Assembly (NCBI GenBank): GCA_964019415.1
Contig: OZ025871.1
Location: 9,723,713 to 9,787,712, forward strand
Direction of reading: 5' to 3'
Source of the DNA: Ianthella basta
Taxonomy: Eukaryota; Porifera; Demospongiae; Verongiida; Ianthellidae
Length of the DNA: 64,000 nt
Below, piece by piece: positions 4,867-63,515 of the stretch; the first letter of the stretch is position 1, and every line of letters starts with the position of its first letter. The notes below the pieces were generated by a model. That model searched no databases. It was not told the DNA's origin and saw nothing but the letters and a program-made list of their open reading frames with translations. The position numbers and the translations under genes were made by a program.

Positions 4867-6695
4867 CTATGAGTGGCTGTCTTCAGTGGCAGCTTCTAGA
4901 CTTGCTTGTTGCTCACAACCACTGTGTGCAATTGGTTGATTGTGAGCAGGTGCTTTCACCTTCTCTTCAGCTTCAGGAGGTGCCTTCACAATCTCCAGCT
5001 CTTCAGCTGGATCAAGGCATGCTTCAGCTTCCAAACTGCTCAAAGGCATATACTTGTACCCCTTTGCATGTGATATGAGACCATCAAACACTTTTTTCAA
5101 CTCCTGGAAGGAGGGCCTTGACTCTTTGTCATCACTCCAGCACTCTCTCATTATGGAATAGCTAAAGTAAAATATAGAACACTGGCAAAAATATAATTCT
5201 CCTAAAACATTAAAGTGGGCAGAGTAGCACTGCATGGTCTACCAAAGTATGCACTATTTTACTATAATATTCAAGGTGCAGAGCACAAAACCACAGTGGG
5301 TGCAGGCTGTATATATCCATTACAATTGCTTACACTCGTTCTGGGCACCCTTTAGGAGACTCCAGCCTGTAGCCTGCCATCACCCTGGAGAGGATAACTG
5401 TGTTGCCAAATTCCTTGTATGGCACATCACCTGTTAAAATATATACAATTGGAAAGTACATGACATGGTATTAATAATTATAGTGGTATATAAGTCCACA
5501 AGTTAAATCCTGCATGCCTGTCACTCTCCGGTTTTATGGAACACAAATGTGTCTTCTTGAATAACAACACTGGTGATTATATATAAAGACTTACCAATAC
5601 TGAAGATCTCCCACAAGCAGACACCATAGGCCCACCTATATGCACAGCCAGAAGGAAACTATGAAGTATGCAATACCTAGTGTGAAAATGTTTGCGGAGA
5701 CAGCGCATTGGATAATTATGTTTTTATGCTGGTATCCATTTTATTGCTCTTGACTCACACATCTGACTTCTCGCTAAAAACTCCACTGAGGAGTGTTTCA
5801 GGTGGCATCCAGCGAATTGGAAGTCTAGTCTTTCCAGTTGAAGTGTATTCCAATGTCTCCTTTGCCAGTCCAAAATCACTTATCTTCAGTAGCTCATTGT
5901 CCCCTACTAAGATGTTGCGGCAGGCAAGGTCACGATGGATGACTCCTTTTGATTGCAGATACTCCTATACACGTTATACACAATGTTCCATTTATACACA
6001 GTGTGCACAGTACATAGCAGTGCATGTATGCAGTATAACTTATCTAGTATATCACTCTCACCATTCCACTAGCAATCTGCCATCCAAAGCAAGTGAAGCT
6101 CTTGAGATGTTGATCAACGTCTGGAGCATGTGTCTAATGGGTGGTAGGACGTACATTCAGATCAGTTACTTTATATGTACCTAAAATACTACCTATACCT
6201 TCGTTGCTCTGAGGTAGTCCTTTAGGCTCCCATTGGGAACATACTGCATAACTAGCATCACTGGGAGGGTGGTGGTGACACAGCCAATCATCTTCAAGAC
6301 ATGAGGGTTGTTGCCAACAGAAACTCTCTTCATCACATTAATCTCTTCCGTAAACAGTTTTCTCTCATTCTCACCACTGCTGAAACCTGTGTATGACAGT
6401 AAGATTGGCACAACACACCCAGTATGTGTATACTTCCTGTGTAGTTTTGCATGTGTTCCTACATACACTGGCATATTCAATCTCACTAACGTCGAAGCAT
6501 TTTCACTGCAACGGTCAGGTGTGACTTCCCCTCAAACTCCATTTCTTGCTTGTGTGCATAGATCCTGGGTGACATGGCTGTCAGTGCTAACTGTCCTTTG
6601 AACATATCACCATATTTCCCCTGACCCAATTGATCTCCAATTTCAATCTCACTTCTGGAGAGCTCCCAAGCATCTCCATGTGCTTCAGGGACTAA
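4867..6695 (-). CDS. Gene A kinase domain and C-tail exons
   Basis: Seven exons encode a complete tyrosine-kinase fold: glycine loop [16 protein letters not shown] lysine, alpha-C glutamate in the [11 protein letters not shown] segment, hinge [10 protein letters not shown], catalytic loop [24 protein letters not shown], the WAYGVCLWE helix, and CW followed by RPSF. The activation segment has one tyrosine (LEYTSTGKT) rather than the YxxxYY seen in many RTKs. A short tail of about 60 residues carries YKYMPL, a YxxM motif of the type that binds PI3-kinase p85 SH2 domains once phosphorylated (family knowledge). Catalytic residues are all present, so an active enzyme is expected. Confidence 0.92.
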
Positions 6696-9600
6696 CTGTG
6701 TTCAGGCATATGAACAAACACATGCAGTGCACTCATGTGCATGCTTATACAATTATAACATCGATTATCAACAAAATTGGCTGTATATAAGGTTCAAAAC
6801 TGAAAGCACATGTTCATTTGATGTTGAGAACATTGTTTATGCTATGCATGACTTGTGAATTGTATAACACTATACCTCATCATATTTCTGTACATGTACA
6901 CCCATAGGGTACTGTGCTAATGGAATCATCCTGCATTAGAAAGCATAAACGACTTTTGCTAAGCAAAGTGCATTGCACATCAAATGGCAGATAAAAAATG
7001 TTAGCAGACTGAAAGTATGGCATTATTATTGCCTTTAATCTGTATCAGTCAATATTCTTTTATGAATATTGCTACTATAATACCAAGGGTACATTTCTAC
7101 AATGTTGTTACCTCTCTGTCTTCTTCATTCGAGCTCTTCTGGATCTGAACCAGATGCAAGCTGTGATAGGCACACAAGCTCCACCAGCAAACAGCAGTAG
7201 AATAGCCAGAACCAAAATGATGGTACCGGTAATGGTACTAATGTCATTTGGTGTTTCCACTGTACTTGGCGGGAGTCTCACTGCACATGCATGGGATTCG
7301 GAGTACAGTACTTACAAGCCACATTTAAACAAAGTAATATATAATATATGATTGTGCAAACTGATGAGACACCAACATATACTAGTGTAGTTGGTAGGTT
7401 AGCATTATATCCAGTGCTTTTACCACTTGATGTAGCATAATTAATACTTCGCACATACAATCATAACTATTGTTAATATCAGACTATGCAAGCAACTTGC
7501 ATACTTACCTGCCCCAATGCGTTCTACAAACACCAATAGCTGACTCCAGTTGGATACAAAGTTGTAATCTGTTGGAACCAACTCCAGTCCTAGTAAGCTC
7601 TTTTCGCCCACAATGGGAGGTGGCAGATCAGTGACATTCACTGTACACCAGATTTCAGTATGATTCATCTCAAAGAAGCAACAAGGGTTTTCTGTTAATT
7701 CAAACCTATAATAGCATTTTGTTGCAAAGAGTAGTTTAATGAGAATCACCAATAATTATTCATTCAATACAAGTCTAAAGTACAAACTGAAAATCACCAT
7801 GGTGCTGTAGAAATGAGGATGAAGAAATTGATGGAAAATTTGTTGTGCAAGTAAAATTAAACTTGCAAACCACTAGCTAAAACTTCTTTACAATTTCATA
7901 ACCAGTTTGAGTAAGTTGTTGCCATTTGTGCTGAGTTTGTGCCATTTTCTGACAACTGTGAGCAGTGGCTATTGCAAATGAATCAAATTATGTATGCTTA
8001 TAAACACTATAGCAAGTATTTTAAGGACCGCACAATGCAGCAGTCCAACATTTTTTATTAACAATATAAATTTTGTAACATCAAAGTATCTGAGTTCAGA
8101 ATAGCTGCCTCAGTGATTTTGCAGGTAACACCATATAGTGCACGTGCAGACTCATCTCTACTTACGGCCAATGCTCTCATTGATAAGTTTAAATTTCACA
8201 CAAGGGCAAATCCCATTGCAGAATTTAGGGTCTGTGAGACTACTTTGAATGATGGGAATTTCCAATTGCATCAATGTGTCCTCCTCACTGACATTAACTG
8301 AAGTGTCTGCTGTCTTCCAGGAATATTCAGGAACTGCATTGATGATTGAAGTGGGGAAAGCGTCAATTGGTTCAAAAATTATACAGTTGTAGTGAGAAAT
8401 ATGAAGCATAAATAATTAATAGTTCTGCCGCAACATAATTGAAATTATTGTACAACCAACCAACGTATCAATGTTATAGAAGACATGGTAGTAATGTTGC
8501 AAACATTTCAAGGCAAGCCCTCACCATTGAATATGATGAACTCCTTTGTCTGGTAGCAAGAGGTATTGCTCAGCAGTTCCTGGTTGATTGTTACCAAACC
8601 AGGAGCTGTACTGTTTGGCATGTCCATATTTTCACCTTCAATGTCAATGACACATCTTGTGAATAACTGCCGTGGATGAAATTGGCAGGTTGTGTTTAAG
8701 TCTGTAGATAAAGATCAAACATCATTTGAAATCTCTGAAATGATAAATCTGATGAATGAACTTACACACAGCTATTCCATTGTTATTGAATGACAGACTG
8801 AGAGAAACAGATGTTACATCACAGGCCGGACTGTTCCGAATAACATACACAAACAGAGCTTTAAAGCTTGCAATGTGCACTTTAGTCCTGTCTTCATCAA
8901 AGCAGAACTCTTCGTGTACATCTGTTATAATAATTAAAATATAATTATTCATACAAACGATCTCATCAGGCTATACTGATGATTGTATGTATTACATCTG
9001 TACGTTGCGCAAGGCAATTATAGCATGTATTGCTAATGATCTTCATTCTCTCATGCAATATACATAGAGAGATACGTACTCGATGACAGTCTTCGATGTG
9101 TACAGTACACATTCAGTGCACAACATACATTTACAATTGTGCCAATGTAGGAATGTGTGTACAATATACATTTAGCATCACGCCCACACATGTGAATATG
9201 ATAGCAAGACTATGCAGCTCCAAAATTTGATCATCATACCTTCATCGATAATTGTAATGGAAGTCGAAGGATGCAAGCCTAGCAGAAACCCTTCTTCAAG
9301 AATTATATCCGCTGTGAATGTCTCATCACACTCTGGCACATCATCATTCACCATAATTGGAATGTTCACACTTGCAGTGATGGATCCACTTTCAAACATC
9401 AGCAAATACAGGCCACAATGTACATCATCCACACCTACAGGGATATGTGCAGTATGTGTAAGAACATCATCATAAATTTAAAAGCATGTTTCTTGGGCCT
9501 TGATCAGTTTGTAGCTCAAAATTAACTTACAATGAGCAGTGTTGCTAGTGATGTTTACAGTAATGTTGAAATTCTGATGACTGGCTGTGTTCGCAGTGAC

Positions 9601-12600
9601 AGACAAAGTGAGATTTCTACCTTCCTCAATTTCAATGTACTCTTCTAGAAAAGATATTACAATCACATCTTGAATGTTAACTGTCGCCTCCCGAATTTTT
9701 CCCAAACTAATCTCCAAATCATCAGAAATGACGGAATGGGCTGACAGATGGAGAACAAAATACTCTGTGCCTTCATTTGTATCCAGGTCTTCAACAATGG
9801 GTATGTTAATCGTGGTAGAGGTCTCATTTGCGGCAAAGAAACCAGAATATGACCCACCTCTGAAGTCAAAGCCAGCTGCAATAGAATGGCATATGCAGCA
9901 GTAGCAATATCACACACTGTTACTACACAAAATTAATGCAGCAGCTATATAGCTATTCTGGAAGCATTATTACATACATCCAATAGGGCTATAATTATAA
10001 GGAACTATTGTAGCACTCACCTGATGCACTTCCAATGCCATTTACAGTATCCACTTGTACTGTATAGTTTAAATGTGGAATGGCCCTACTGGAGTTGAGA
10101 GCCACACTGACACTGCCAACTGACTCGTAGACATGATATACTGATTTACTGAAAGTGCACAGTACTATTGCAGTGTCCAGAATAATGACGGTAGTGGATG
10201 CAAATGTATAATTGGACTCTGATTGTAACTCTGCAGTAAAGTACTCTTCGCCCTCATCCAACAGGTCACGGTGAATTAGAATCTCCATAAGTGCAGTACT
10301 CGATCCTTCGTGAAACACTGCTGCGATGTTTTCCTTTCCAGAATGTGTGGTATAGTCACTTCCAACTATTACAGAGGACAGACATATGCAGATCTTCAAA
10401 ATTCAGCACATGAGCAAAAAATAATGTGATGATAATAAAACAAGCATTGCATGATATGAATAATATAGAGTAGGAAGGATGCCCTGGCATAACCTGTTCA
10501 TATATGCACATGCAAACCTTCCATCAAAGGTAGGGGAGAACACATGGTGGCAAATGTGTATATCGATGTGTCCCAAGCAAGTTGACAGTGATGCTTGTGT
10601 ATACATGGGCAGCACAGAGTGCATACAATTGCAAAGAGACAGCACGTCATGATGATTTCCCACGCAGCACTTGCAACAGCTTGTCCACCCCTACATATAT
10701 TGTCACATGCTTGCATGTATGCACAATAATGTAATAGCTACTCACACTTAGCAGATCCATTCTTCAATTGCACCAGGAGAGTATATTCTGCAATAGCTGT
10801 TACGTTTGAAACCAACTCAAGTGTAACTGATTGCTCTACCTCGTGCATCATGTACATGGCAGCAGAGAAGGAATAACTGCCTGCATTGACAGTATTGAAG
10901 AATTACATTAATTCAGTAATAGTGAAGGTTACTTCTACTTCAACCCCAAATAACAATGTTGTCGCACTATCTGTTCACATACTTAACGTGTCATCAAAGG
11001 CAGAAAAGCGATAGATAAGTGAATGTTGAATAAGTGAATGCTTACATGTCTAACTGTTGCCAGTTAGACATGTAAGCATTGCATAATACTGCGTGCCTGT
11101 CCTTAATTCACCTGAGTATAATTATTATAAACACTTACTGACATGCGTATGCCTGGAGTTAAATAACAACTCACTTTGATTACAGGTGGCCCCTGTCCAT
11201 CCTGGTTCACAGGAGCATGTGTTGGGGGACACACAAGTTCCTCCATTGGCACAAGATGCATTGCACACAGCTGAATTGAATGCAAGCAAACATTCCAAAT
11301 TGTAAACTACCATCTCATACAGGCTACTGAATATTCTAGAGCTATTTGATGCATGATTAATGCATATTGAATGAACACAATCACAATATTGGCCTCTTCC
11401 CATGCAGATTGTGTTGTCTCCACTGGTAAATGATGGTTGAGTTGTCAAATCTGAGTAGTTTGCATAGCATTCCTATCTGCTATGCAACAGAAGCATCTTC
11501 ACTGCCTGAATTAATGTTTATATCAAGCTAAGGATGAATGATTAGAACCAAGCATGTACTTACGTATGTATAGTCACTTGCCATCACAGCTGAGTAGCTA
11601 TAGGGCACGTATGCAGGCAATTATCAGTGGAAATCATTCTGTGTCATAGTTATATTGATTGGGAGGTGGTTTATATGCCATTATTACACTGAATTAGCAA
11701 CTGAGATATGTTGAAGATATAAACTCACGAACACACTCTTGCCCCAGTGTCTGGTATCCAGTGCAGCATGTTGTCCGATAGCTAGTGTAGAACTTGAAGG
11801 TTGATCTACTCCTAAGTAGAAAGATACCACAAACGCAATAGTATTATTACAAAAGAATGGACCTATTAATAATAGCAATGCAGCCTAAAGAACGTAACAC
11901 TGTCACATTTGTGTAGATAGCTTCATGGTTACCATGGTTACACAAACAAAAGACAACATTGGAAACTGTACATGGTAGGAGAAGGGGGGAATAGTATAGA
12001 TGTCATATTCATTTGCACCAACTATTAAACTTTGAATATCATACAATGAATTTAGCTTATGCACATGAACTATTTGCAATGTATACCTAGCTATTGCTAA
12101 CCTGTTCACCTCCAGCCAAAAAAGTGGTGAACAAGATATACAATTAATGAGCTGCTTAAGGGTTACACTCCCCTTTCAAACTTCCTTTTGACAAATTTCT
12201 AACTTGAGTAGTAGATTTAATGTTGTCTGAGACTCGTATAAATACATTTTTGTGAACATTTCTCATACATGCAGAAAATCACATACATTACCTTTGCCTT
12301 GACTGCCTGCATCTAGCCCATCCAAAAAGGCCACAGTTGGTATAGTAATATTCAGTATAGTATTGCTCAACACTGTAACTGGACTGATATGCCACAGTCA
12401 TTGATCCAGTTTCATTGCAAAAGCTACAAAAGAGGAAAGATCTGGTGAAACTACCAGATCATGAACATGATGATACAAATGGACAATTGGCACTCTTCCC
12501 ACTTCTTTATGTGAAATTATTCCCTGTGAATATCATTGATGTGTAACATGCAGGTGGCTGGTATTGTATTAGTAATAAACACTAGCTATACAAAACACTG

Positions 12601-13385
12601 GATTCTTATTATTGCCCTCCTAATTAGCTCACTAATGTGACACAATTGGGAAAAGTAGAGATTGCGCATTCCTAACAGCATCACATTGAATTATACATTT
12701 TATATTAATGTGTTCTATCATGTGGTATTGAATTCAATAATAATCATGAGCTACCTTACCATACCTGCGTCCGTGGCTGCATTGTGCTTAACAATATGTC
12801 CGTGCCATGAAGTGTCTGACCCGCTAGACCCAATGTCTCACTACTGCACAGGGAAGAAAGAGAACCTTTCTTCCTTCCTCGTGCAATGATGAGAGTTTGG
12901 GTCCAGTGGGCCAGATTGTTATATGATGCAGCAGCTAAATTCATATTAATTATCTGTATTCATTGTAACAATTGGACAGCATATCCAAGGCAGGGATGAA
13001 TTCGTTTAGCTGAAGAACACTTGCTGCATGTTGCTTGCTTTTTGGCTAGTTGTGCAGTATAGTCTCTCACCAGCATGGCACCTGTTGGTTAGCTATATGT
13101 CAGGAAAATAATACCATGTGCATGCAGGTACACAACCAATTTTTACTGGATGTGTATTTGACTATATCTGTAGAGCATACTTCAGTGACCTGCATGACCT
13201 GCTAGGAGATGGCTGTGCCATCAGTGCACCTACTGGTGTGTGGTGTATGCATTGAGGACCGTCCTCTCCCTCGGTATCAATTAGCCCAGTCACCTGTCGC
13301 CCTTGACAATTATCACAATGCAGCACAGCAACATCCACTGTAGGAGAGACCCTGACAGCCTGTGATGGACTTGAAGTTGTTCCAT
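4867..13385 (-). CDS. Gene A: receptor tyrosine kinase with EMI, EGF and Calx-beta ectodomain
   Basis: Single-pass RTK; my 22-exon model gives 1,172 aa. Exons, 5' to 3': 13294-13385, 12760-12843, 12292-12423, 11729-11811, 11175-11270, 10746-10880, 10021-10365, 9531-9875, 9240-9434, 8766-8921, 8525-8701, 8166-8333, 7509-7691, 7112-7280, 6876-6930, 6491-6695, 6199-6386, 6062-6133, 5759-5964, 5595-5635, 5334-5430, 4867-5161. All introns are GT-AG and every phase joins. Order: signal peptide, EMI, EGF, Calx-beta repeats, TM, kinase. Two points are uncertain. Exon 1 uses a GTGACT donor after VKGD; reading on hits a stop. Exon 7509-7691 needs an acceptor 14 nt inside the one used in B and C, otherwise the frame breaks. 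Confidence 0.82.
7112..7280 (-). CDS. Gene A transmembrane exon
   Basis: Encodes a short extracellular stalk ([13 protein letters not shown]), a hydrophobic helix ([19 protein letters not shown]) and a basic stop-transfer segment ([10 protein letters not shown]). Entry phase 1, exit phase 2, as in genes B (25387-25543) and C (54985-55135). The next small exon (6876-6930) is juxtamembrane. Confidence 0.9.
7509..10880 (-). CDS. Gene A Calx-beta ectodomain block
   Basis: Eight exons, all entered and left in phase 1. They hold Calx-beta-like repeats, recognised by the pattern GSDYTT followed about 40 residues later by [11 protein letters not shown] and an ILDT end; further copies show [16 protein letters not shown] and [16 protein letters not shown] ending in IIDEG. 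Calx-beta folds are calcium-binding beta sandwiches known from sodium-calcium exchangers and integrin beta-4. The last three exons (8525-8701, 8166-8333, 7509-7691) encode cysteine-containing segments conserved among A, B and C that I cannot name. Confidence 0.85.
11037..11080. repeat. Perfect 20-bp hairpin
   Basis: aatgcttacatgtctaactg, then loop ttgc, then its exact reverse complement. It sits in the gene A intron between the EGF exon and the first Calx-beta exon. No flanking element was recognised. Confidence 0.95.
11175..12843 (-). CDS. Gene A EMI and EGF exons
   Basis: Exons 12292-12423 and 11729-11811 form an EMI-like domain: CFCNETGS at the start, [10 protein letters not shown] in the middle, and the diagnostic [10 protein letters not shown] close before GQEC. 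Exon 11175-11270 is a single EGF domain ([22 protein letters not shown]). EMI followed by EGF is a common extracellular-matrix combination, for example in the emilin and multimerin types, and suggests protein-protein contacts. Exon 12760-12843 upstream is a 28-residue linker (start SETLGLAG). This N-terminal set replaces the Ig domains of genes B and C. Confidence 0.8.
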
Positions 13386-13454
13386 TTCGTTTTGTCTCTT
13401 CTGACAGTGTGGCTACTATATATACATGTACAGGGAACTGTATTAGAGACGAGG

Positions 13455-46945: not shown

Positions 46946-47063
46946 TGTGCACTCTGTGCTCCCCCATTAATTTTGTTTCTGCATCTGTTCTGCAACGAAT
47001 ATTACAATTTGGTATCATTTGTGAATATGAGCACACACCATACAGCAAATTGAGCACATATAT

Positions 47064-47723: not shown

Positions 47724-47899
47724 TCAAGTGTTTGCCCTTGTAGACTCCTTGGCTATGTATAGATTATATCTGTATTTGACAATAGGAAACTAAAATATTA
47801 TAGCATACCTTGTTCAAAGAGACAGCTCCTTCTGTTCTTTCTCTTCCAACTCTGTAGGATCCCCTACTCCTGTTAACATACCATATCTATCTATGTCAG

Positions 47900-48378: not shown

Positions 48379-48382
48379 ATAC

Positions 48383-48693: not shown

Positions 48694-49166
48694 ACATGTA
48701 CTTGTAGCTAGTACATTACAGCTCTGCTCATGAACACGTATACGCACTGGCCTTGTATGTGCAATACATTATCATGGTTTGTTATACATGTACAAGAATT
48801 CTGGCTAGAATATACAGTCACATTGCGCATGCAATATTCAGGTTACTAACCATTGCAGAAGTGCCAAAGTTAATTCTCCGGCTGGTTAGGACACATTATG
48901 CATGAATGTACTGTGCATGGGTCTTGTCTAATATGGCATACTATAATATCATGGACAAGTTCAATTGCAACATAGCTTGCCATGGTGTCTATTTTGAAAT
49001 CATATTAAATAATTGCTAGACAGTGAGACATTAAATACGCATTGCTTGATAATGGAACCTATTATGAACACTGTGTAATTCATTGCCTGCAATTTTTATT
49101 AGTAATTTTTGTGAATATATATGAGCACACACCACACAACAAATTGAACACAAATATTATCCTTAC

Positions 49167-49803
49167 CTATACCGTGTCTGCCTGCATTTCTAGACCACCA
49201 AAACAATCCACAGCTGGTTGTGTACTGTCCAGTATAGTATTCAACAACATGGTGACTGGACTGATATGTCACAAGCATAGAACCTGTTTTGTTGCAAAAA
49301 CTACAGAAGAAAGGACCCAGTCACATTTGACTTAAACGTTCTGTCCTGATAGGGGACAATTTGTTAGTCAATCATTTCAAACACATGCAATTTATAACTC
49401 TAAACACTATTAACATGTGTAAAGCCTGACATAATGTGACATGCATATAAGGCATTGCTTGGCTAGTTGGTTGCATATGCATTCTTCCACCATTTGCACA
49501 AGGTTTGTGACTGCTGTGAATGCTCCATTCGGAGATTTGGAAATTGTAGGACATAACTCCGACAGATGTGCTGTTCAGAGTGCTTTGTAGAGCATACTGC
49601 AGTGACCTGCATGACCTGCTAGGAGGTGGCTGTGCCATCAGTGCACCTACTGGTGTGTGGTGTATGCATTGAGGACCGTCCTCTCCCTTGGTGTCAACCC
49701 ACATGACTCTGTCACTCCTGACAACTGTCACAAGACAGCACAGAACTATCCAAGGCAAAGGAGAACCTGGTATCCTGCAAAGGACTAGAGAATGCTCCAT
49801 CAA
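49167..49803 (-). CDS. N-terminal module of an incomplete receptor copy
   Basis: Exon 1 starts at ATG 49803 (or 49800), with a signal peptide (SPLPWIVLCCLVTVVRS) followed by VDTKGEDGPQC and SCRSLQYALQSTLN. The donor of exon 1 is unclear. A second exon (49167-49300) encodes the first half of an EMI-like domain (TSCGLFWW) with one expected cysteine replaced (RC to RN). No second EMI half, EGF, Calx-beta, TM or kinase follows before the next duplicated segment begins near 49100. Probably a truncated copy; a short secreted product is possible. Confidence 0.5.
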
Positions 49804-50533
49804 ATGTTCTCCCTTGTAGACTCATTGGCTATGTATAGATTATACCTGTATTGCATGGTCTGTATTTGACATTGGGAAACTGAAATATTATAGCCTACCT
49901 TGTTCAAAGAGACAGCTCCTTCTGTTCTTTCTCTTCCAACTCTGTAGGATCCCTTACTCCTGTTAAGATACCATATCTATCTATGTCAGTCAAATATTCC
50001 CCTTGATTTGTCCACCAGCACACTAACACCACCATTATGCATTAATGCTGTTAAGCAACATATTATTCCACCAGTAACTTACATACTCAATGTAATCAAT
50101 TGATTCAGAAGTTGTTGTATACGGCAAAGTTATGCCACTGACTGGATGACCCTGTGCTTAAAATAGCTGTTACTTGTTTTTGTTCTGCATGTGTTCAGCC
50201 CCTACCCCACCACACCCTTGCATGCATGAATAGGTGAATGACCTTTGATCAATATGCACTGTACATATGCTGTTTATGGGAGGACCGAGCTGTTTATAGG
50301 ATAAAGGAATCCACCAGATGATATTCTGTTATGAAATTGATAGCGAATCATGCTTTGTATTGATTGAATAGTTTTTGATTTCGCTACTTATGGTTTCAAC
50401 TTCACACATTATCCATTCAATAATGACAATATGTCTTCAATGTCTTCTAACCCCTGGTACAACACATGTACTTGTAGCTAGTACATTACAGCACTGCTCA
50501 TGAACGCGTATATACGCACTGATTTGACATTAC
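49804..50533. other. Upstream region of the N-terminal module
   Basis: Contains the conserved 5' UTR-exon-like block (about 49910-49965) and the same upstream segment seen at 13.5-14.1 kb. No gene. Confidence 0.55.
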
Positions 50534-52375: not shown

Positions 52376-54474
52376 TCAAGCATCAATCCCTTCAGTGGCA
52401 ACTCCTGTACTTCTTTGATGCTGACAGTCACTCAATACTGTGCAGTGAACATGAGGAGGTGCCTCCACAGTTTCCTCAGCTGGATCAAGGTCTGCCTTGG
52501 TTGCCAAACCATTCAAGGGCATGTACTTGTATCCTTTCGCATTTGAAATGAGATCATCAAACTCTTTCTTCAACGCCTGGAATGTGGGCCTTGACTCCTT
52601 GTCATCACTCCAGCACTTTATCATAATGGAATAGCTACAGTACAAATATGTGTGTTTATGTAAATAATTTTACAAAATCTTTAAAAGTATGTGGGCTAAA
52701 TTCTAATTATAACATGGTGCATAGCATGCAGTTCAGTAATATAAGGTCTAACAGTGCACCTATATATATAGTACATCCACCGCCCACAATACAGAGGGTT
52801 AATATGTACAACAACACAGTGCACTTGTTGTATGTACGCACATATCAATACCATTTGCTTACATTTGTTCCGGGCACCCTTTAGGAGACTCCAGTCTGTA
52901 GCCCGCCATCACCCTGGAGAGGATAACTGTGTTGCCAAATTCTGTGTATGGCATATCACCTGCAATATGCACAATAGAGATGATACAATGATATTATAAT
53001 GGACTATATACAATAACACTGGGCTGGAACATGTATAATTATACACATTATTACTTAAAATGCAACAAGTGGATTCATTAATATACATCCTTCCATAGAC
53101 TAACCTAGACTGAAGATCTCCCACAAGCAGACGCCATAAGCCCACCTGCATGGCCAATATATAAACAGAAATGTGTTATGCATAGGTAAACCATAGAAAT
53201 CCATTGTTGAAGTTTGTATAAAATATTACTACTTGAATTAAGACTCACACATCTGATTTTTCACTAAATTCTCCCTTTAGGAATGTTTCCGGTGGCATCC
53301 AGCGAATTGGAAGTCTAGTCCTTCCAGTTGAAGTGTACTCCAAGGTCTCTTTTGCCAGTCCAAAGTCACTTATCTTCAGTAACTCATTGTCCCCTACTAA
53401 GATGTTGCGGCAGGCAAGGTCACGATGGATCACTCCTTTAGATAGCAGGTACTCCTGAACATTGGTGGACATATGAAATCCAATGTTCCATGAATAGTAA
53501 AACCATGATCGGCTTTATGTCTGCCCCGCTGAAATGAGGACCCATAATGACTGTTTATCTAACAAAATAATACCTCACCATTCCACTAGCAATTTGCCAG
53601 CCAAAGCAAGTTAAGCCCTTGAGGTACTGATTAATGTCAGGTACTTGCGTCTAATGGGTGGAAGGAAGCAGAGTCTACATCTGTAGCAGTATAGTTGTTG
53701 AACACTCTTCGAATGGCAACATTATAATCCTCAGTAAAATGCATTGCTTCATGTGCATGTCTTGTAAGTAATGAAATGCATTTGCCTACAAATTTTGTGT
53801 TGTATACGCTTTATAAATGTGCTGTATAAAATTAATGTGTCGCATAAATTTGTTATAATTGTATAATAATAATAATTATTATTATAATTGCTCAGATAAG
53901 CCACTGATTAACCCATCACTATACTCAGGAAACAGACAATACTAGTTTTCAGCATCCCTTACTTCAGCAGTTACCTTCTTTGCTCTGAGGTAGTCCTTCA
54001 AGCTCCCATTGGGAACAAACTGCATGATGAGCATCACTGGGAGGGTGGTGGTGACACAGCCAATCATCTTCAGGACATGAGAGTTGCTACCATCAGAAAC
54101 TCTCTTCATCACATTAATCTCATCCATAAATAGGCTTCTCTCTCTATCATCACTGCTGAAATCTGCGACAGAAATGACAGGCTCTACATGAGTGTATATG
54201 CTAGATATGATGTTCAAACCTTCAATGTGTTCCTGAGCAAGTAAATTTCAGCTTACTCACTTCGAAGCATTTTCACCGCAACAGTCAGGTGTGACTTCCC
54301 CTCAAACTCCATTTCTTGCTTGTGTGCATAGATCCTGGGTGACATGGCCTTTACCGAGAGCTTTCCTTTGAACACAGCTTCATAGTTGCCTTGACCTAAT
54401 TGGTCTCCAATTATAATCACACTTTCGGAAAGCTCCCAAGCATCTCCATTGGCATCAGATAAGAAGTGCACTGC
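52376..54474 (-). CDS. Gene C kinase domain and C-tail exons
   Basis: Seven exons with [10 protein letters not shown] (the third glycine of the loop is replaced by Glu), [39 protein letters not shown] and CW followed by RPTF. The tail has YKYMPL. The G-to-E change is at the last position of GxGxxG, usually glycine, and might reduce ATP binding; other catalytic residues are intact. No transposon interrupts these introns, so this is the 'empty' reference for gene B. Confidence 0.92.
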
Positions 54475-57400
54475 CTGTGTTCAAATTGTCATGCATAAAT
54501 GGTACTCTGGCAGTTTATCTTAATAAAATTGTAGTGCACAAAACTGCATGCAAACATTTGAACTGATGAATCTTATGCTCCTTCAATTCATAAATATTGT
54601 ACCTCATTATTTTTCTGCACGCTTGCATGGTACTGTGCTGATGGAACCATCCTGCAGTATTTAATAATTTACATAAAATTGACAGTAGAACAGTAAGTGC
54701 ACGGTTATATCATTATACTGAAGGTCAGTATAATTATATGCCTTGCAAGTACTACCGAGCTAACTATATATAGAGTGGATCCAAAAGGAATGCATCGAAA
54801 ATGCATCACGCAGTCATGAGCATAGGAGTAGTATACTCACAACTCTGACAGTATATCCCCCACATACAGAAGTGAGCTAAACAAGGACCTCCTTATAAAT
54901 GAAACTTTTGAATGCTGCACGGTGTGCTGCATCTCCACATCCATTACTAGTACAATATTTATACACAGTGTACAAGTGCACTACCTCTCTATCTTCTGTC
55001 TTCTGCATTTTTTGGCTCTGCGCCAGATGCAGACTGCAATAGGCACACAAGCACCCTCAACAAACAGAAACACAACAACCACAACTGCCACGATGGTAGC
55101 ATTGTTGGTTGATGCCATTGCACTAGGTGGTATCTCTGCATGGATTGGTTTCAAAGTACAAATGCATGCACACTCTATCTATAATATAGCAAGATGCTTA
55201 TACATACAGTCATTGAATGCCCTGCCAATGGCCCATATACCTGTCCCAATGTTTTCCACAAGCACCATCAATTGACTTGAGTTGGATATCCAGCTGTAAT
55301 TTGAAGGAGACAATTCCAATACTAGTAAGCTCTTATCTCCCACCATGGAAGATGGCAGACCAGTGACATTTATGGTGCAGGTGACTTCAGTATCATTCGT
55401 AACAGAGAAACAGCAATTATCTTGTGCCAGTTGGAAACCTATAAGAATGACATTGTACAAAAGTGCATAAACATATTAATGATATAGCTATATACCCGTG
55501 TACATTATGCAAACATCTCAAGTCATAATGTATTATACATCTAAATCATGAAGAAACGTTTAGAAAGTATCTTGTGATATTGCATCATGCATAAAGCAGT
55601 TGAGTACCTATTAAATGTAGAGCTGAAATTGGTGGCACTGTATAATTGGTATGTAGTGACAACATTCTGTCTAAGGTTTGCATTTCCATGTCCTATGTGC
55701 ATGCATGAAAAGACAATCTGGTGCTGCCAATTCAAATTGAGCTATGCTTGCACTTAGAGTGATTCGAGTACATTCTTTGCAGAAAATTCTTATTCATCGT
55801 TTCATTGGCATATATAATGCAGTGCTATGGATATAAACCTCAGTGATGGATAATTAACATAATTATGTGATACATAATGATATGCATGTCAATTTGTATA
55901 CACAAGTATACATTCCATGTTGCATTGCAATGACACCTGTCACCAGGTACAACGCTGCCTAATTATGGAACAGGTGATTGCTAGTGACATTGCATGTATG
56001 TCACATCTTTTTACGAAGTACTTTCAAAGTGTGGGTCAAAAATACTATTTTACAAACAAAATTTTGCAAAGGAGACTATGCTACATTGACAACTAAGGGT
56101 TTCTTATAATTAGTCTGTGACCAACATTGGGAGTGGTAGCTTCTGAGAATGAACAAACACGTGCTTGTCGAGGTTCACTACTATGCCAGACTTATGACAG
56201 TTCCTATTATTAATATAGCATACATAATTATTATGTACATAAATAATAGCAATAAAAACATACGCAACTGTGCCCCATTCACAGAAATCGCGAACATTTG
56301 TGATTGCAAAGATTTACAGGCATACAGGATTAGAGTAATACATTGCAAATATCTAATAAAGAATATCATTTCAGCTATATCCTGTATGACTGCTTCTCTT
56401 ATGTTCAAGCAGTCCAAGGATGTGCTCAAAGACCATGCTATACAAATGTATAAACTTACGAGAGTAAACAACAAATCACAATAAAGTCACTATTAATGGT
56501 AACAGTTGCCTCATTGAATAGACAATACTAGTGCATATCCATTTCAACTTACTATCATTGAGAAGTCTGAAATTCGCACAAGGACATTCCCTTTCGCAAA
56601 ACATAGGGTCTGTCAGACTATTTCGCATGATAGTCACTTCCAGTTGCACTGATGATTCCTCCCCACTTACATTAACACTAGCTTCTGTTGTCTTCCAGTT
56701 GTATTCAGGGACTGTATTAAAGCATTAAACAGTGCTATTATATAGTGCTTTCCGAACAAAGGAAACATGCATGCTGAAAAATTTTGTAGCAAATGAAATA
56801 TTTCATCAAATTCATGTCAAAGTGAAAATGACTTAGTTATGCATTATCTTAATTCATAGACTGAGCAAACATCTAATTGCCCTCACCATTGAAGACCATA
56901 ACCTCTTTCATTTGGGTGCAAGTGGAGTTGTCCAATTCTTCCTGACTGAGTGTTACCAATCCTAGGACTGTACTGGTTGGCATGTCCACATTTTTACTTT
57001 CAATCTCAATGACACATTCTGTTAGTGTTTGCATTTGGCCAAATAGGCAGCTTGTGTTTAAGGCTGCATATATTTATATAGACAATAGACAAAACAAATT
57101 TGAATTACCTTAACCAGTACATAATACTTGAACTGATGATCACAGTTACTTACACACAGGTATTTCGCCGTTTTTGAATGCAAGGTTCAGAGAGATAGAA
57201 GCTGCACCACAAGCAGGACTGCTCCGTGTTAAATTCACAACCACAGCTTTAAAGCTTGCAACTGCAGCTGTCACTTCAACATTCTCTTCACCAAAGCAGA
57301 ACTCTTCTTGTACATCTAAATAATGCACAGTCATGCAGTTAATGCATATGCCAGACATTCAGTGTACACACAACACAATTTGAGTGTTTTTAAATATACA

Positions 57401-60400
57401 TTTGTGAGTTCAATAGGAAAGTACCCACACACAAGGCTGTCTACAAAGATGTGTACAGCTTCAATGCCAATTATATTGTTGTCCCATGTATGTAATGCAT
57501 GCAAATGGGGTGACTGACAAAGTATGGAATTATAATGGAACAACACTATACCTTCATCTTTAATTGTGATGGAAGCTGAAGGGTGTGAACCTAGTCTGAA
57601 TCCTTCTCCAGGAACTGTAATAGATGCTGTGAATGTCTCATCACACTCTGGTACATCATCATTCACCAGTGAAATGTTCACGCTTGCAGTAACGGATCCA
57701 CTTACAAAATTCACCGTATACGTATCACATTGTATGTCACCCACACCTATAATCATATATGCAATCAAATATTAATATACGTCATGATCACCTATATTGA
57801 AGATCATTCTGTCAAGCTATGCTTTTTATGTATAGATTTACTTACAATGAGCAGTGTTGTTAGTGATGATCATAGTAATGTTGAACTCCTGATCACTGGC
57901 TATACTTGCAGTAACAGTCAAAGTGAGATTTCCTCCTTCTTCCACTTGAACATTGTCTTCTTCCAAAGATATAATAATCTCATCCTGAATGTAAACAAAT
58001 GCTTCCTTGATATTCCCCAAGCTTATTACCAGATCACCTGTAATAACAGAATGGCCTGCCAGCTGTACGATGAAGTATTCTGTGCCTTCATTTGAGTTTA
58101 GGTCTTCAACAATAGGAATGTTAACCACAGCAGATGTTGCATTTGAGGAGAAGACTGCAAAATAGGAACCTCCTTTAAAGTCAAAGCCAGCTACAATAGA
58201 GTTGCAGGAGTGTGATTATATAAATTATAGCCATCACACACTTCTATGACATACATGCTGGTAGGTATCTATCCATTCTTCAAGGCTACTGCATCAACGC
58301 TCACCTGATGCATTTCCAACATATGCAGTATCCACTTGTACTGAATAGTTTGCATGTGGAATAGCCCTACTGGAGTTAAGAGTCAGATTGACAAATCCGA
58401 CTGACTCATAGATATAGTACTTTGATTGGCTAAAGGTGCACAGTACAACTGCAGTGGGTTGAATGATGATCGTGGTAGCACAAGCAATAATTCTACCATT
58501 GGACTCTGACTGTAACTCTGCTGTAAAGTACTCTTCATCCTCATCCATCAGGTCATAGTGAATTAGAATTTGTAGTTGTAAAGTATTTGATCCTTTAGGA
58601 AAAACTGCTTCAATGTCTTTGGATCCAGTAAGTGTGGTATAGTCATGTCCAACTGTTACAAAGGATTGATAAGGATCATTAAATTTATATACATTAGTAA
58701 CCACGCTGTGTGATGATGATATTTATAAAGATGGAATAATGTAGTCAATGACAGAGAGTGGCTGTTAGTATAGGATTCTCCTGATCTCAAGGTCATCCGT
58801 GATAATTAGCAAAAACAGGAAGGCTGGCCTGAGGGTTAACCGCGCAGTTTAGTTTATGCATGCACAGATATTCTCATGAAGGCCTCAATAGTATGGAAAT
58901 AGAATCAGACATGTCTGAATGTTATCCATAGAATTGAGAATCTAATCAATAAAGCAGTTACTATGGATAAAGACTGAGATTCAGTTATTGCATAAAGCAT
59001 AATTCAGTATAATTATGTCATGTCTGTCAATCATTGGTCCAGAAATTAATTGCAGTATACTATAATACCTTGCGATTATTTCTGCAGCTGCCAATCATTT
59101 CTCAAGGACCCAGAGGTCTTTGTCAACAGTTACTGTATAATTCCTTTACGCAGTTGACACAGACCTCCAAGTCAAAACATAACATGTGCTTGTATACTCA
59201 CACATTGCTGATCCATTTTTCAAGTGTACCAAAAGGGAATGTTCTTCTTCGGCTGTCATGGCTGATACCAACTGAAGTGTAACTGACTGTTGTACTTCAT
59301 GTATCTCATACTTGGCAGCAGAGAAAGTATAAGCTGTAGATGGCATATGCATAGAGTCATTCAATTTAATTGACTCTAACCCTACATGCTGATTATAAAT
59401 TCAACTACTGTACCATAGCACCTAAAATTACGAGTTAAAATAACCTCTATAACAATGTATAGGCACAAAATTAATGAACAAAAATGATTGAAGTAGACAT
59501 CGACAGACTGATACACAATTTGACACACACACACACACAGCTGTGCAGCAAGCAAACATAGCTATCTAATACACTTAATGTTAAAAATGGCCAGCTGCAG
59601 TAGAGCTTAGAGACGCATCGGAAATGTGTGCAACGTGGTTCTGGCCACATCTGACAGATAGCATTGTTTCAGATGTGTTGGCCATTGGCTTTGCCTGTAC
59701 ATAGAGGACATTGTACATCAAGGAGACACAATTGTTTCGCTGGCAACACTTCCTGTGAGTGGCTGAGTAACCGTTTCTCTGAGTTGCTGACAGAAAGCGA
59801 ACAGTCAGATTGAAGAATGCATGGCATTAAACTGTTAGATGCAAAAATCATTTCTCCTTAACTTGATCTACATGGCCGTGTTTTACCCTAAAAATGTGTT
59901 CATTCCTGCTATTGAATGTAGGAGAATACTGGAGACTTCTCCCTATATAGCTTTCTGTGTGCCTTAGTTTGCAACTGAGGCATTGTTCTATTGCCTTAAC
60001 CCATTCAAATTGTTAAATCGCATGCTAGAGAGGAAATTCAGTACAGTTTCTTTAGTACAGGAAACATTACATTTTATTATTTTCTTCACAGTTTATGTAC
60101 AAGTTACTCACTCATCTCAAACCATACATACTTACTTTGTCGATCCATCCCAGGACACACTGAAAGAACACTGCTTCGTGCTTGCCCTTGTGTGTTGACA
60201 GCTACTACTGCGACATTGTAGGTCAGGAACTCATTGGGCAGTGTCATAGTGAAGTAAGGGCTGTTGCTGCTTCCTGCATTCACTGGGTTTCCAGGCATCC
60301 CTGCTGGTTCATACTCAATCTCATAGTAGATGGCTCCATTAGGGTGGAGTGGGGGGAGCCAGTTCAGTTGAATGGTACTCCCAATTGTAGGTTCAATAAT

Positions 60401-61126
60401 GGTTAGCATGCGTGGTTGGGTGGGGGCTGCAGGGATGCAAGCAATGGTAGCTGATTAGCAATGCATGCTGGTCATTAATGGAATCAGTGTGTTCACCTCA
60501 GTCACTGATACAATAATTATAATTATGAAAGTAGAATAAACTCACCACTTTCCATAGTAGTCACATTTATCTCCCTTGCCCCACCACTGACTGATGTCCA
60601 ATCTGTAGACCACACTCTGATCCTGTAGGTTGTTCCTCGTTCCAGATCACTCAGTGTTACACTAGTGGTGGCCCCTCCCACAATCCTCTCATACTGTGGA
60701 GTCATCACTGGGGGAGTACCAACGTCCTGTCTCTGATAGCTCACGTAGTATCCTGCAGCACCTGGCACTTGGGACCAAGAGACACTGATTGAATTAAGTG
60801 TAGTGGAAATAGTTTGAATTCCTTGTGTGGCAGAGGAGGGTGGCTGCAAGGTTGTGCTCACTGTAGTATGAGTAGAAGCACAACACACCAACTTAACCTT
60901 CATTCACATTCCTAAAGTGCTGTGTCATCATGAATGCAGACCGGAGTCGGCATGGGAAGTAAATTCAGCACCCTCTGTATTTAGTACAGTACAACAAAAG
61001 TAGTAAAGTGACTGCCATGCAGTTATCTCTCCCACCTTTGGAATATGCTGATCATCTGCTAGTACTAACAATTTGTGAGCCATTCTGAGTTTAATTGCAG
61101 TTCCTTATTGAGATTAATACACCAGG

Positions 61127-61195
<69 letters not shown>

Positions 61196-63515
61196 CAACT
61201 ACAAACACATATGTATGTTCCTCCTCCACACACCAGAATTTTCAAAAGCAGTAAACCAGCAGCATGCAATGGGCAACCTGAATGCATCTAGTACTATCCT
61301 TTTCCAAGCTGCTTCTCTCATACTGTGCTGAAAGATGTATCTCTCCAACTCATGATCGCTGGGATTTTGAGAGTGCCTTTCCCAGAAACATTCCAAAACT
61401 AACTTCACTTTTTAGTTACAGCCAGCAGAGAAAATACGAAGAAGACAAATGACAACGGGCAATTTCAAGCTCACTTAATTGCCTGGTAGAACGTGTCCAC
61501 TTGTGTTCCTGCAAGGTCAGTTCAGAGTTTAAATCGTCTGTATTTTCACATAACTCTTTAGCTGTATAGCTTTCTATTGGCAGCTATCAGCTGTTCACTC
61601 TTTCTCCTATACCACATACCAACAGGAAAACATATTAACTTTACATCTCAGCATAGAGTGCTACTGCACTCTCTGACACTATTGTAGCTATATCTCTTCA
61701 GGGTTGTAAGTTTACATGTACAACACTAGCTTGATTTCAAATGTCCAACATGCCACTCAATAGACATGTCATAACCCAATAAGCACCATTTCTGGTTACA
61801 CAAGATCAACAATTTGCAATGTCACAGACAGTCATATGTAATAATTATACTATACTGAAGTGTGGTTATTTACTACTTCAGTTAATGAAGTAGTAAATAA
61901 CTCCATGCTCACCTCCGTTTATGAGATGCACTCCAATGAATGCTGACTGGCCACTGGACACTTGGCACTCCAGGTCTTGATTCACATATGCAGGTGAGTT
62001 AGTGTACATGTGGATATCAGTGTGTTCATTGTCTTGAGGGTCTACACCTACAGCACCATTGTTTTGACACCGGTCACCACAATCTCCACAAGGTGTAGGG
62101 CATGTCATTAGCAGTCTATCCATACTGTTATGCCATGTTACTTGTTCCAACGTGCTAGTACCATAACAAACAATGTGGTCATTGCCAACCGCACCACTTC
62201 GCTGACGTGGACTGTTAGTGTGTGTGAGTGTGGAGTTGGTAACAAAGCTGTTTCTGGGGAAGAACACTCTTAAGCCACCATCGTCATTTAACAATGACAG
62301 TCCATCTGTGGAGGAGGACACGAAACCATACATACAATGTTCAGCAAAATCCCGGTGCTTGGTAGGCACAAAGCACACAGTGAACAGTATAGGGTGTGTG
62401 TATATGGGTTGTTGTATGCATGTTGGAAATCTTAGGATAGCAGAGCTCAAAATTGGCAGATGAAGCTTCAGGTCCCTTGAGGAAATGTGGGTTAAATCAG
62501 GAATTGAATCAAGGATCATCACTCTATAGCAGATTTTCAATGACTGAGCTACTTGTTTATCTTTATTATTTATTAGATGCATCCTGGTTATATTTTACCG
62601 TTCAATGGTTTGTCTGCATAATCTGTAAGGGGCTTGGGCTTCAAATGTTCTTCATCACCATCGTCTGCCTAATTTTGCCGAAGATGCATTAACATATAAG
62701 AGAAGACATCTCTATTGGCCACATTCCTAAAAAGACAGCATGAGGGTGACGTCTGCTAATGAAGGCAAAATATTCACACTCCATGTCAACGGAGGTAGGT
62801 ACAATTCAATAGCGTGTAAGCCCTTATTTTCGTGGGACTTTATTTTCGTGAATTTCGTGAGGCAGTAGGCTTTAGCAAAAAATATTCTCATGAATAATTC
62901 TTGCTTTATACTCTCAATATTGAAGCACAGTGCATATGATACCAATACAAATAACTAGGCGACCATTCACTAGAAAAATATCATTCCAAGCGGCAATTCA
63001 CAAAATTTTCATCCCGCGAAAATTAGAGCTTACAGGGTAGTTAAGACCAGGGCGTAAAGTAGCCAGGTCACCTTATAAGCCAGCATGGCAGAAAGGCAGT
63101 GACACTCTTCTAGCCTGCCTCTGGTGATGTCAAATGAAACACCCATGGAACACTATAGCGCAAGCATACTATTGACAAGAAAAAGGTGTTATTAATTATC
63201 TCGTTTTGGTGCACTACTCACTTGCAACTGACAATGTGTATTCAGCTGTCCCTAGTTGCTGTGAGTTGCCCTGAACAGTACAGGTGTAGACACCATTGTC
63301 AACATTCTGCCTGCGTACATTCACCACCAAGACGTTGCCCTGTTGGATCCTGGCTGCCCACTCATGATCAACTCCTCCTGCATCACAATAGCCCCCAGGA
63401 CAGGTCCACTGATAGCTCAGCACAGTGGTGGATGGCACTCCTACAACTCTGCATAACAAAATCAGGGCATTGCCTTGCTGCACAGCAGCAGTGTTTGGAT
63501 AGGAGTCAATGACAA
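52376..63515 (-). CDS. Gene C: receptor tyrosine kinase with Ig, FN3 and Calx-beta ectodomain (5' end missing)
   Basis: 21 exons, 1,428 complete codons visible, no stop. Exons, 5' to 3': 63222-63515, 61913-62305, 60546-60860, 60136-60426, 59202-59333, 58305-58652, 57846-58190, 57552-57746, 57154-57315, 56887-57063, 56553-56711, 55241-55438, 54985-55135, 54603-54651, 54261-54474, 53975-54162, 53579-53650, 53249-53454, 53105-53145, 52863-52959, 52376-52634. The first exon follows an AG acceptor in phase 1, so the signal peptide and perhaps more domains lie beyond the right edge. From the linker exon (59202) onward it matches genes A and B exon for exon; upstream it has its own Ig and FN3 set. 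Confidence 0.87.
54985..55135 (-). CDS. Gene C transmembrane exon
   Basis: Encodes a stalk ([11 protein letters not shown]), a hydrophobic segment similar to gene B ([19 protein letters not shown]) and a basic stop-transfer run ending before a GTAGTG donor. An acidic residue sits near the inner end of the helix. Confidence 0.85.
55241..59333 (-). CDS. Gene C Calx-beta ectodomain block
   Basis: Eight phase-1 symmetric exons with Calx-beta-like signatures GHDYTT with [24 protein letters not shown], and [16 protein letters not shown] closing in TIKDEG. Lengths (132, 348, 345, 195, 162, 177, 159, 198) parallel those of A and B. Confidence 0.85.
58653..59201 (-). other. Gene C intron with a possible tRNA-related scrap
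   Basis: ggctggcctgagggttaaccgcg at about 58823 resembles a tRNA A-box region, but no B box follows. Otherwise nothing. Confidence 0.25.
59334..60135 (-). other. Gene C intron between FN3 and linker exons
   Basis: Contains a short CA run (59522-59538) and an imperfect hairpin (tggccacatctga near 59643 with tcagatgtgttggcca near 59669). No gene. Confidence 0.5.
60136..60860 (-). CDS. Gene C two fibronectin type III exons
   Basis: Each exon encodes one FN3 domain, both in phase 1. 60546-60860: the [18 protein letters not shown] strand pattern and YRIRVWSTD. 60136-60426: [19 protein letters not shown] and [11 protein letters not shown]3 pairs next to Ig domains are usual in adhesion-type receptors. 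Confidence 0.9.
61129..61191. repeat. (CA)n microsatellite
   Basis: About 31 uninterrupted CA units within the gene C intron between the FN3 and divergent Ig exons. Confidence 0.97.
61866..61900. repeat. Perfect 15-bp hairpin just after a donor site
   Basis: ttatttactacttca, loop gttaa, exact reverse complement. It begins 12 bases into the intron downstream of the divergent-Ig exon donor on the minus strand. Confidence 0.93.
61913..62305 (-). CDS. Gene C divergent Ig-like exon
   Basis: A 393-nt phase-1 exon with [17 protein letters not shown] followed by VTWHN, an insert with [12 protein letters not shown], and [10 protein letters not shown]. The C...W...Y-x-C spacing suggests a divergent Ig fold with a cysteine-rich insertion. 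Confidence 0.65.
62811..63040. mobile_element. MITE with ~45-bp inverted ends
   Basis: Left end TAGCGTGTAAGC then cttattttcgtggga; the reversed right end reads TACCCTGTAAGC then ctaattttcgcggga. Both continue with a ttttNgtgaattNc match. TA flanks suggest a Tc1/mariner-type target. In a gene C intron. Confidence 0.75.
63222..63515 (-). CDS. Gene C Ig-domain exon (most 5' visible)
   Basis: A 294-nt phase-1 exon encoding one Ig domain ([28 protein letters not shown]), flanked by a CACAG acceptor and a GTGAGT donor. Confidence 0.88.

Follow-up and report, generated by a model that had tools for sequence, protein, structure and literature searches.

Putative sponge receptor tyrosine kinases in which one Calx-beta chassis is joined to different N-terminal sensors

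Three genes on the minus strand of a 64,000-nucleotide stretch of the sponge Ianthella basta (contig OZ025871.1, positions 9,723,713 to 9,787,712), here called A, B and C, are predicted to encode receptor tyrosine kinases (RTKs) with a common chassis and unrelated modules in front of it. This chassis consists of a Calx-beta stalk, a four-exon membrane-proximal region, one transmembrane (TM) exon, a juxtamembrane (JM) exon and a tyrosine kinase. The whole stretch is called the window below; it is 64 kb of a contig abbreviated C4, and genome searches covered 209 Mb in 96 contigs. Homologous blocks were found by translated self-comparison of the window and then refined to splice sites. A sequence-only reading had claimed 17 exons common to the three genes in the same order and phase, and all of them could be rebuilt: each gene has the exons e0 to e7, TM8, JM9 and K10 to K16, with GT-AG borders at 48 of 48 chassis introns (16 per gene). 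Spliced in full, every model is a single open reading frame (ORF) with one terminal stop (A 1144, B 1217 and C 1447 amino acids), and each begins with an initiator Met and a hydrophobic leader in compatible phases. The parts are as follows, in window positions and with paired numbers such as 1-1 for exon phases.

13294..13385, minus strand: A exon 1 with the start codon; signal peptide judged by eye; phase 2 out
12292..12423, minus strand: A EMI-like exon 1, phase 2-2, from a sub-threshold PF07546 match and splice sites
11729..11811, minus strand: A EMI-like exon 2, phase 2-1, from a sub-threshold PF07546 match and splice sites
11175..11270, minus strand: A EGF exon, phase 1-1, PF07974 (EGF_2) 29.8 bits against a cut-off of 22.1
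9240..10880, minus strand: A e0-e3, Calx-beta stalk (10880-10746, 10365-10021, 9875-9531, 9434-9240; all 1-1)
7509..8921, minus strand: A e4-e7, membrane-proximal (8921-8766, 8701-8525, 8333-8166, 7691-7509; all 1-1)
6876..7280, minus strand: A TM exon 7280-7112 and juxtamembrane exon 6930-6876
4867..6695, minus strand: A kinase and tail, K10-K16 (6695-6491, 6386-6199, 6133-6062, 5964-5759, 5635-5595, 5430-5334, 5161-4867)
44214..44553, minus strand: B exon 1, signal peptide and Ig, phase 1 out, Ig_2 26.1 bits against a cut-off of 27
35813..36139, minus strand: B second Ig-like exon, phase 1-1, no Pfam match, relatives in copies E, G and J
26873..31696, minus strand: B e0-e6 (31696-31571, 30393-30040, 29930-29586, 28093-27899, 27654-27493, 27383-27207, 27019-26873; all 1-1)
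25012..25855, minus strand: B e7 25855-25658 (1-1), TM exon 25543-25387 and juxtamembrane exon 25060-25012
15006..24813, minus strand: B kinase, K10-K16 (24813-24600, 24503-24316, 23963-23892, 23775-23570, 23475-23435, 22174-22078, 15264-15006)
65370-65313, minus strand: C exon 1, signal peptide, beyond the window (locus L009), gene start at 65370
63222..63515, minus strand: C Ig exon, phase 1-1, I-set 23.8 against a cut-off of 23.7 (passes by 0.1 bit)
61913..62305, minus strand: C Ig-like exon, phase 1-1, no Pfam match; its family is large on contig C12
60546..60860, minus strand: C FN3 exon 1, phase 1-1, fn3 (PF00041) 34.1 bits against a cut-off of 25
60136..60426, minus strand: C FN3 exon 2, phase 1-1, alternative acceptor 60450, fn3 32.3 against 25 (longer form tested)
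55241..59333, minus strand: C e0-e7 (59333-59202, 58652-58305, 58190-57846, 57746-57552, 57315-57154, 57063-56887, 56711-56553, 55438-55241; all 1-1)
54603..55135, minus strand: C TM exon 55135-54985 and juxtamembrane exon 54651-54603
52376..54474, minus strand: C kinase, K10-K16 (54474-54261, 54162-53975, 53650-53579, 53454-53249, 53145-53105, 52959-52863, 52634-52376)

Exactly the eight exons that had been listed as equal in length in all three genes were recovered (e2 345, e3 195, e5 177, K11 188, K12 72, K13 206, K14 41 and K15 97), and e1 varies (345 in A, 354 in B, 348 in C). All eight ectodomain chassis exons, e0 to e7, are phase 1-1 in A, B and C, whereas the next eight, TM8 to K15, are all of other phases (1-2, 2-0, 0-1, 1-0, 0-0, 0-2, 2-1, 1-2), which provides an internal contrast. 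Symmetric phase-1 exons, as exon shuffling calls for, are found at the point of exchange. The e0 acceptor is an AG in phase 1 in all three genes, in line with the earlier claim that the sensors meet the chassis at one phase-1 intron upstream of e0, the joins themselves being modelled. The claim of phase-1 symmetry across the ectodomain exons stands for e0 to e7, but one A exon has been dropped and the A EGF acceptor is ambiguous: positions 11270 (phase 1-1) and 11422 (phase 2-1) have equal splice scores, and 11270 is preferred for its agreement with the EGF domain and the reading frame. The dropped exon, a proposed A linker at 12760-12843, is frame-compatible, but the A-like fragment at 46-52.3 kb holds no counterpart, its sole match being 11 bp long (E=0.51), and the exon was omitted because it lacks conservation support. 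Placing an EMI exon at 13350-13168 was likewise rejected; the start codon and leader occupy that place in another frame. In gene B, LINE-like (long interspersed nuclear element) ORFs, endonuclease- and reverse-transcriptase-like by eye, lie in the last intron (15370-21803, plus strand), and copia-like ORFs, gag-, integrase- and RNase H-like by eye, lie between the Ig exons (39221-43094, plus strand).

Pfam comparison of the spliced proteins bears out the Calx-beta label: PF03160 scores above cut-off in all three genes (best 1.5e-25), with three stretches in A (6.3e-23, 81.5 bits against a cut-off of 27). Exon lengths and alignment suggest that a phase-1 intron interrupts every Calx-beta domain (e0/e1, e1/e2 and e2/e3). 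Residues 287-367 of the C chassis, around the third repeat, align with the Na/Ca exchange protein 3rb5 (E=4e-4), presumably Drosophila Calx, and acidic NDD, ECDE and DED motifs can be seen by eye in repeat 3. No Pfam family reaches its cut-off in the membrane-proximal e4 to e7 (about 220 amino acids). TM8 holds one hydrophobic segment, and this and the hydrophobic leader after the initiator Met were both judged by eye. The kinase matches PF07714 (PK_Tyr_Ser-Thr) in all three genes (best 6.3e-82; A 5.2e-81) and keeps the VAVK Lys, the HRD Asp and the DFG Asp in each. Its best PDB matches are spread over EGFR, a Src-Abl ancestor, FGFR3, RET, EphA3 and BTK, which would place it among animal tyrosine kinases with no single class prominent. 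The tail motif GYKYM is kept in A, B and C and contains YxxM, presumably a docking site for phosphoinositide 3-kinase.

Further copies of the chassis were sought elsewhere in the genome. With the ectodomain chassis of C as the query, scoring of 71 of 527 candidates gave 107 exon matches, and the chassis was found at no fewer than 31 places, 29 by an e2 match and two by e1, some of which may be assembly duplicates. A kinase search (114 of 1542 candidates scored) gave at least 65 K13-type exons as read. Among the matches listed, 30 of the 31 chassis copies have a K13 exon on the same strand within 15 kb downstream, and 34 of the 65 K13 exons have no chassis nearby, an absence that is weak evidence. 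The C4 copies, A to K, span 9.73-10.06 Mb. A tree of e1 plus e2 for 23 of the 31 copies contains a clade of B, E, G, J and I (100/99) and another of F, C, H and K (100/99), and the e1 plus e2 protein is identical in E, G and J, in H and K, and in loci L035 and L036. Between 9.89-9.95 and 10.02-10.08 Mb of C4, matches recur at a constant spacing of about 133,160 bases across no less than 61 kb, a duplication that is either real or produced by assembly.

Upstream DNA, at least 8-10 kb of it, was read for 11 copies (A, B, C, F, I, the C11 copies 6074k, 5987k, 6333k, 6153k and 5189k, and the C13 copy 937k), and sensors were recognised in eight of them. They fall into seven types: EMI-like/EGF; Ig-Ig; Ig, Ig-like and two FN3; another Ig-like pair; IgGFc-binding; an exon with no Pfam match plus Ig; and a Calx-beta array. 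Copy F has two different Ig-like exons, judged by eye from their cysteine and YxC pattern. The C11 copies 6074k and 5987k carry an IgGFc-binding exon (PF17517, 2.5e-49 with 168.6 against a cut-off of 25.6, and 5.7e-48, respectively), 6333k has the exon with no Pfam match twice, plus an Ig exon (Ig_3 2e-4, 22.1 against 30 bits), and 6153k has an array of extra exons that each code for half a Calx-beta domain (2e-35 for the single set of four compared with Pfam). By a simple splice score, the sensors in front of F, 6074k, 6333k and 6153k are best modelled as phase 1-1 exons. Nine more copies were given sensors by search position alone: the B-type Ig pair in E, G and J, the C-type Ig, Ig-like and first FN3 exons in H and K, IgGFc in 6185k and 6308k, and the F-type pair in 9054k and 8788k. 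An EMI/EGF set 25 kb upstream of copy I was considered as its sensor and is a candidate only.

Sensor-like and kinase exons also occur apart from the chassis. Clusters of IgGFc-binding exons lie at 0.93-1.67 Mb of contig C6 and 5.32-5.40 Mb of C18, with no chassis copy there among the matches listed. At 9828-9833k of C4, a kinase exon set has EMI/EGF exons 3-5 kb upstream and, among the matches listed, no Calx-beta chassis between them, possibly a receptor without a stalk. Relatives of the A EMI/EGF exons are found on C17, C8, C20 and elsewhere (150 of 340 candidates scored).

The case for sensor exchange is clearest in the comparison of C with F, whose chassis groups with those of C, H and K (100/99) and yet whose sensor differs from that of C. 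The DNA upstream of F matches C at 59,302-59,559 (75%) and again at 68,003-69,964 (91-93%), and between these flanks, at 59,560-68,002 of C, there is no blastn match of 60 bp or more.

59560..64000, no strand: C sensor block, window part, without F match; flanks match, and the block runs on to 68002 past the window end

The alignment thus shows C and F to differ by a whole sensor block between homologous flanks. A counterpart of the F Ig-like pair lies 10 kb upstream of chassis copy 8788k, with identities of 73% and 76%. At 7 kb upstream of 9054k there is an exon 79% identical to the first of the F pair, and the second aligns there as two segments (78% and 52%). In e1, 8788k and 9054k share only 42% and 41% identity with C. 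For gene B, the second Ig is 97-99% identical in copies E, G and J, and has relatives of 46-79% identity at 9.30-9.52, 9.71 and 3.94 Mb of C4.

Relatives of the C Ig-like exon point beyond the array. It has 75 near-full-length matches in the genome, three on C4 (in C, H and K) and 72 on C12 (4.4-6.1 Mb, 63-80% identity), with 13 further shorter or weaker matches and all 94 candidates scored. In the one C12 gene that was read, L045, the Ig-like exon, three FN3 exons and a TM exon are followed by a short tail bearing HYVQL, NPAY and ETYCQY; the 8 kb examined show no kinase ORF, and no kinase match falls there among the matches listed. Of 62 matches to C12-type TM/tail exons, two fall on C4, in the DNA upstream of C and of F. 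Could C12 be the donor of the C module? As a proven donor it was rejected, the 15-row Ig-like tree having no starred branch and leaving the C4 rows ungrouped. Synonymous divergence (dS) in the Ig-like exon is 0.47-0.49 for three C4-C12 pairs and 0.33-0.42 for two C12-C12 pairs, and together with copy number (72 against 3) this makes C12 the more likely source. Separately, the Ig-like exon of H (L053) differs from that of C at a dS of 0.131, against 0.014 for Ig and 0.026 for the first FN3, and looks as if it had been converted from another family member.

These lines of evidence (the C/F block difference, the relatives of the F pair, the C12 family and the other sensors on other copies) support the proposal of sensor swapping on a constant Calx-beta/TM/kinase chassis. 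The narrower claim that swapping took place within the tandem array holds in part: exchange is supported, but likely sources extend beyond the array and swaps are fewer than copies, because several copies keep their sensor through block duplication.

Recombination can also be placed inside the chassis. In a comparison of C, F and H 3' of 59,400, 277 sites are informative, and the best split lies at 57,889/57,884.

57884..57889, no strand: recombination breakpoint in C near the 3' end of e2

On the 5' side, 156 sites join C with H, 24 join C with F and 11 join H with F; on the 3' side the counts are 2, 76 and 8 (Fisher p 4e-41 at the scan-selected split; observed maximum reached in 0 of 5000 permutations). 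Identity between C and F in 150-column windows is 73-96% on the 5' side and 98-100% on the 3' side, and that between C and H is mostly 93-100% on the 5' side, 91-95% just 3' and 98-100% from e6 on. By this alignment C is shown to be a recombinant, H-like 5' of 57,889 and F-like 3' of it. Similar steps appear in dS, which for B-C is 0.57-0.73 in e0-e2 and 0.06-0.26 in later exons (except the 16-codon JM9 at 0.44), for C-F 0.11-0.18 in e0-e2 and 0 in e3-e5, and for B-I 0.17-0.20 in e1-e2 and 0-0.04 in e3-e4; A-B and A-C pairwise dS have no comparable step along the exons. Given the C/F/H mosaic and these steps, the sensor with e0-e2 and the part from e3 to the kinase therefore behave as two linkage blocks in the array.

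Nonsynonymous divergence (dN), like dS, was estimated pairwise by the simple Nei-Gojobori method (NG86), with no confidence limits attached and, for several exons, from short sequences. Over the three A/B/C gene pairs, the kinase has a dN/dS of 0.24-0.28, e0-e3 of 0.32-0.36, e4-e7 of 0.51-0.81 and TM plus JM of 0.60-0.63. These ratios show the kinase and the Calx-beta part to be under purifying selection, with weaker constraint outside the kinase; positive selection is not proven. Between C and H, dN and dS are 0.023 and 0.014 in Ig, 0.101 and 0.131 in Ig-like, 0.030 and 0.026 in the first FN3 and 0.037 and 0.062 in e0-e5, and the sensor ratios are imprecise because the changes are few.

The explanation that best accounts for these observations, and that is probably right, is that A, B and C belong to a large RTK family on one chassis, in which exchange among copies has paired different sensors with the same kinase. 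The gene models show unrelated N-terminal modules to precede the same phase-1 intron upstream of e0 in different copies, and the mosaic in the alignment shows that gene copies exchange segments. A module from another receptor gene landing upstream of e0 would be spliced in frame since almost every ectodomain intron is phase 1, and duplication, unequal crossing-over and gene conversion could create new sensor/kinase pairings. At the protein level, a ligand on the N-terminal module would gather receptors via the Calx-beta stalk, which possibly binds Ca2+, and the kinases would trans-phosphorylate, tail sites such as GYKYM included. The likely role would be the recognition of microbes or other cells.

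Could plain tandem duplication be enough, each gene having inherited one N-terminus that diverged past recognition, with no exchange? Neighbours that share sensors (B/E/G/J at 97-99%, and C/H/K) fit this account. However, C and F have flanks at 91-93% upstream and 75% at the e0 region around sensor blocks with no blastn match; sensor relatives lie outside the array (63-80% for the C Ig-like exon on C12, up to 79% for the second Ig of B); and the first Ig-like exon of F is 76-79% identical to exons before copies that are only 41-42% like C in e1. Duplication without exchange is thus very improbable. A different possibility is that the N-terminal exons are separate genes or remnants, that the kinase genes start elsewhere and that the joined models are artificial. 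It draws on the joins being modelled splicing, on the 8 kb gap with copia-like ORFs between the B Ig exons, and on the C12-type TM exons upstream of C and F. Against it stand the single ORF of each model, with initiator Met, hydrophobic leader and compatible phases, the recurrence of an Ig1-Ig2 spacing of 7.5-8.4 kb upstream of four B-type copies, the presence of Ig, Ig-like and first FN3 exons upstream of C, H and K alike, and the phase-1 AG acceptor of e0 in A, B and C, which together make it very improbable. An assembly artefact, with the mosaic and the duplications arising from haplotype switching or false duplication, could claim the 133 kb-offset duplication (G/H and J/K, identical in e1 plus e2 protein) and more near-identical copies on C11. 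Yet the copies C, F and H occupy distinct positions on a single contig and are set apart by their identities, 73-96% for C-F 5' of the breakpoint and 91-95% for C-H just 3' of it, and unrelated sensors on distinct contigs are independent of that join, so that this account is highly improbable.

Several observations weigh against sensor exchange on a common chassis as the general explanation. The N-terminal exons are joined to e0 in splice models from DNA alone, and some of their labels stand on weak domain matches. In the EMI-EGF front end proposed for A, EGF is above cut-off but EMI is sub-threshold (PF07546 E=0.75, 11 against 25 bits, positions 4-68 of 69 aligned). The Ig-Ig front end of B has both exons in place, but the first falls 0.9 bit short of the Ig_2 cut-off and the second matches no Pfam family; in C, Ig and both FN3 exons pass and the Ig-like exon matches no family. 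The Ig-like exons of F are below cut-off as well (first V-set E=0.013, 16.1 against 26 bits; second no family), as are the sensor exons of 6333k, which have no Pfam match at cut-off. Upstream of I, C11 5189k and C13 937k (three of the 11 copies read) no sensor was recognised in 8-10 kb, and the second FN3 of C is not matched in H or K among the matches listed. Copy 8788k, used in the F comparison, is the sole copy of the 31 without a listed kinase exon. The Ig-like tree, with its unstarred branches and C4 rows apart, leaves the direction between donor and recipient undecided for C, and B/E/G/J and C/H/K each retain one sensor through block duplication. In the mosaic, 24 C=F sites lie 5' of the breakpoint, and C, F and H are nearly identical near e6. 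The glycine loop of C reads GQGNYE, with Glu in place of the third Gly, and e4-e7 dN/dS reaches 0.81 for B-C.

Animal RTKs such as EGFR, FGFR, RET and Eph resemble these genes in having a leader and one TM segment (here judged by eye), Ig, FN3 or EGF domains in the ectodomain and intact kinase motifs, DFG among them; they differ in that here a Calx-beta chassis carries variable N-terminal modules and no one class is prominent. Calx-beta proteins such as the Na/Ca exchanger and integrin beta-4 share PF03160, which here would be extracellular, from the predicted topology, and fused to a tyrosine kinase. In the choanoflagellates Salpingoeca and Monosiga, receptor tyrosine kinases are fast-evolving and form species-specific families (PMC4054682). 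The likeness lies in such fast-evolving lineage-specific families; the word 'calx' is absent from the main text of that paper, and its available passages do not describe phase-based sensor exchange in tandem arrays. A survey of pattern-recognition receptors in the sponge Halichondria panicea lists RTKs, Ig and FN3 among putative cytokine receptors and, in a figure legend, Calx-beta and IgGFc-binding under 'other domains' (PMC8242945), with no Calx-beta RTK or sensor swapping described in the passages available. The titles, abstract openings and passages covered by a full-text literature search describe no RTK with a Calx-beta ectodomain and no IgGFc-binding RTK, though an earlier mention may exist. 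RTKs with shuffled ectodomains are a known kind, and fast-evolving lineage-specific RTK families are established in choanoflagellates; the Calx-beta chassis was not met in the portion of the literature searched.

An open question is how early animals could build up large repertoires of recognition molecules when they had no V(D)J recombination. One genome displays a constant signalling chassis, phase-compatible sensor cassettes, related sensor families elsewhere and recent breakpoints, and with these parts visible together, sensor exchange becomes directly testable between individuals of one species. The arrangement is also a natural template for modular receptor design, one signalling engine being connectable to many sensors. 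A more speculative extension, less likely than not, is a germline-recombining recognition system in which sensors are continually reassorted onto kinase chassis and one family is also mounted on kinase-less receptors with tyrosine-motif tails. If true, one recognition module would be wired to two outputs, a primitive form of paired receptor that might function in allorecognition or in telling microbes apart. Paired activating and inhibitory receptors are known from mammalian Ig families. The likeness is that the Ig-like and FN3 ectodomain of C is common to the C12 receptors, and that L045 has a short tyrosine-motif tail and no kinase exon was found in it.

Between genes B and C lie remnants of a further A-type gene.

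46536..50436, minus strand: fragment D, A-type remnants, with EMI-like exons near 49300-49133 and 47212-47039

Its K10 and K11 kinase pieces, within 46944-46536, are 96% and 72% identical to A. A short collagen-like (Gly-X-Y) ORF lies between this fragment and gene B (46090-46317, minus strand). Elsewhere in the window, a repeat of about 800 bp occurs in several copies and both orientations (16689-17498, 22597-23384 and 37266-38115, and 769-1595 of L044), 57-bp tandem repeat arrays of one family are present at 2721-3322 and 50798-51035, and a long near-perfect inverted repeat at 18497-19242 is a possible hairpin element.

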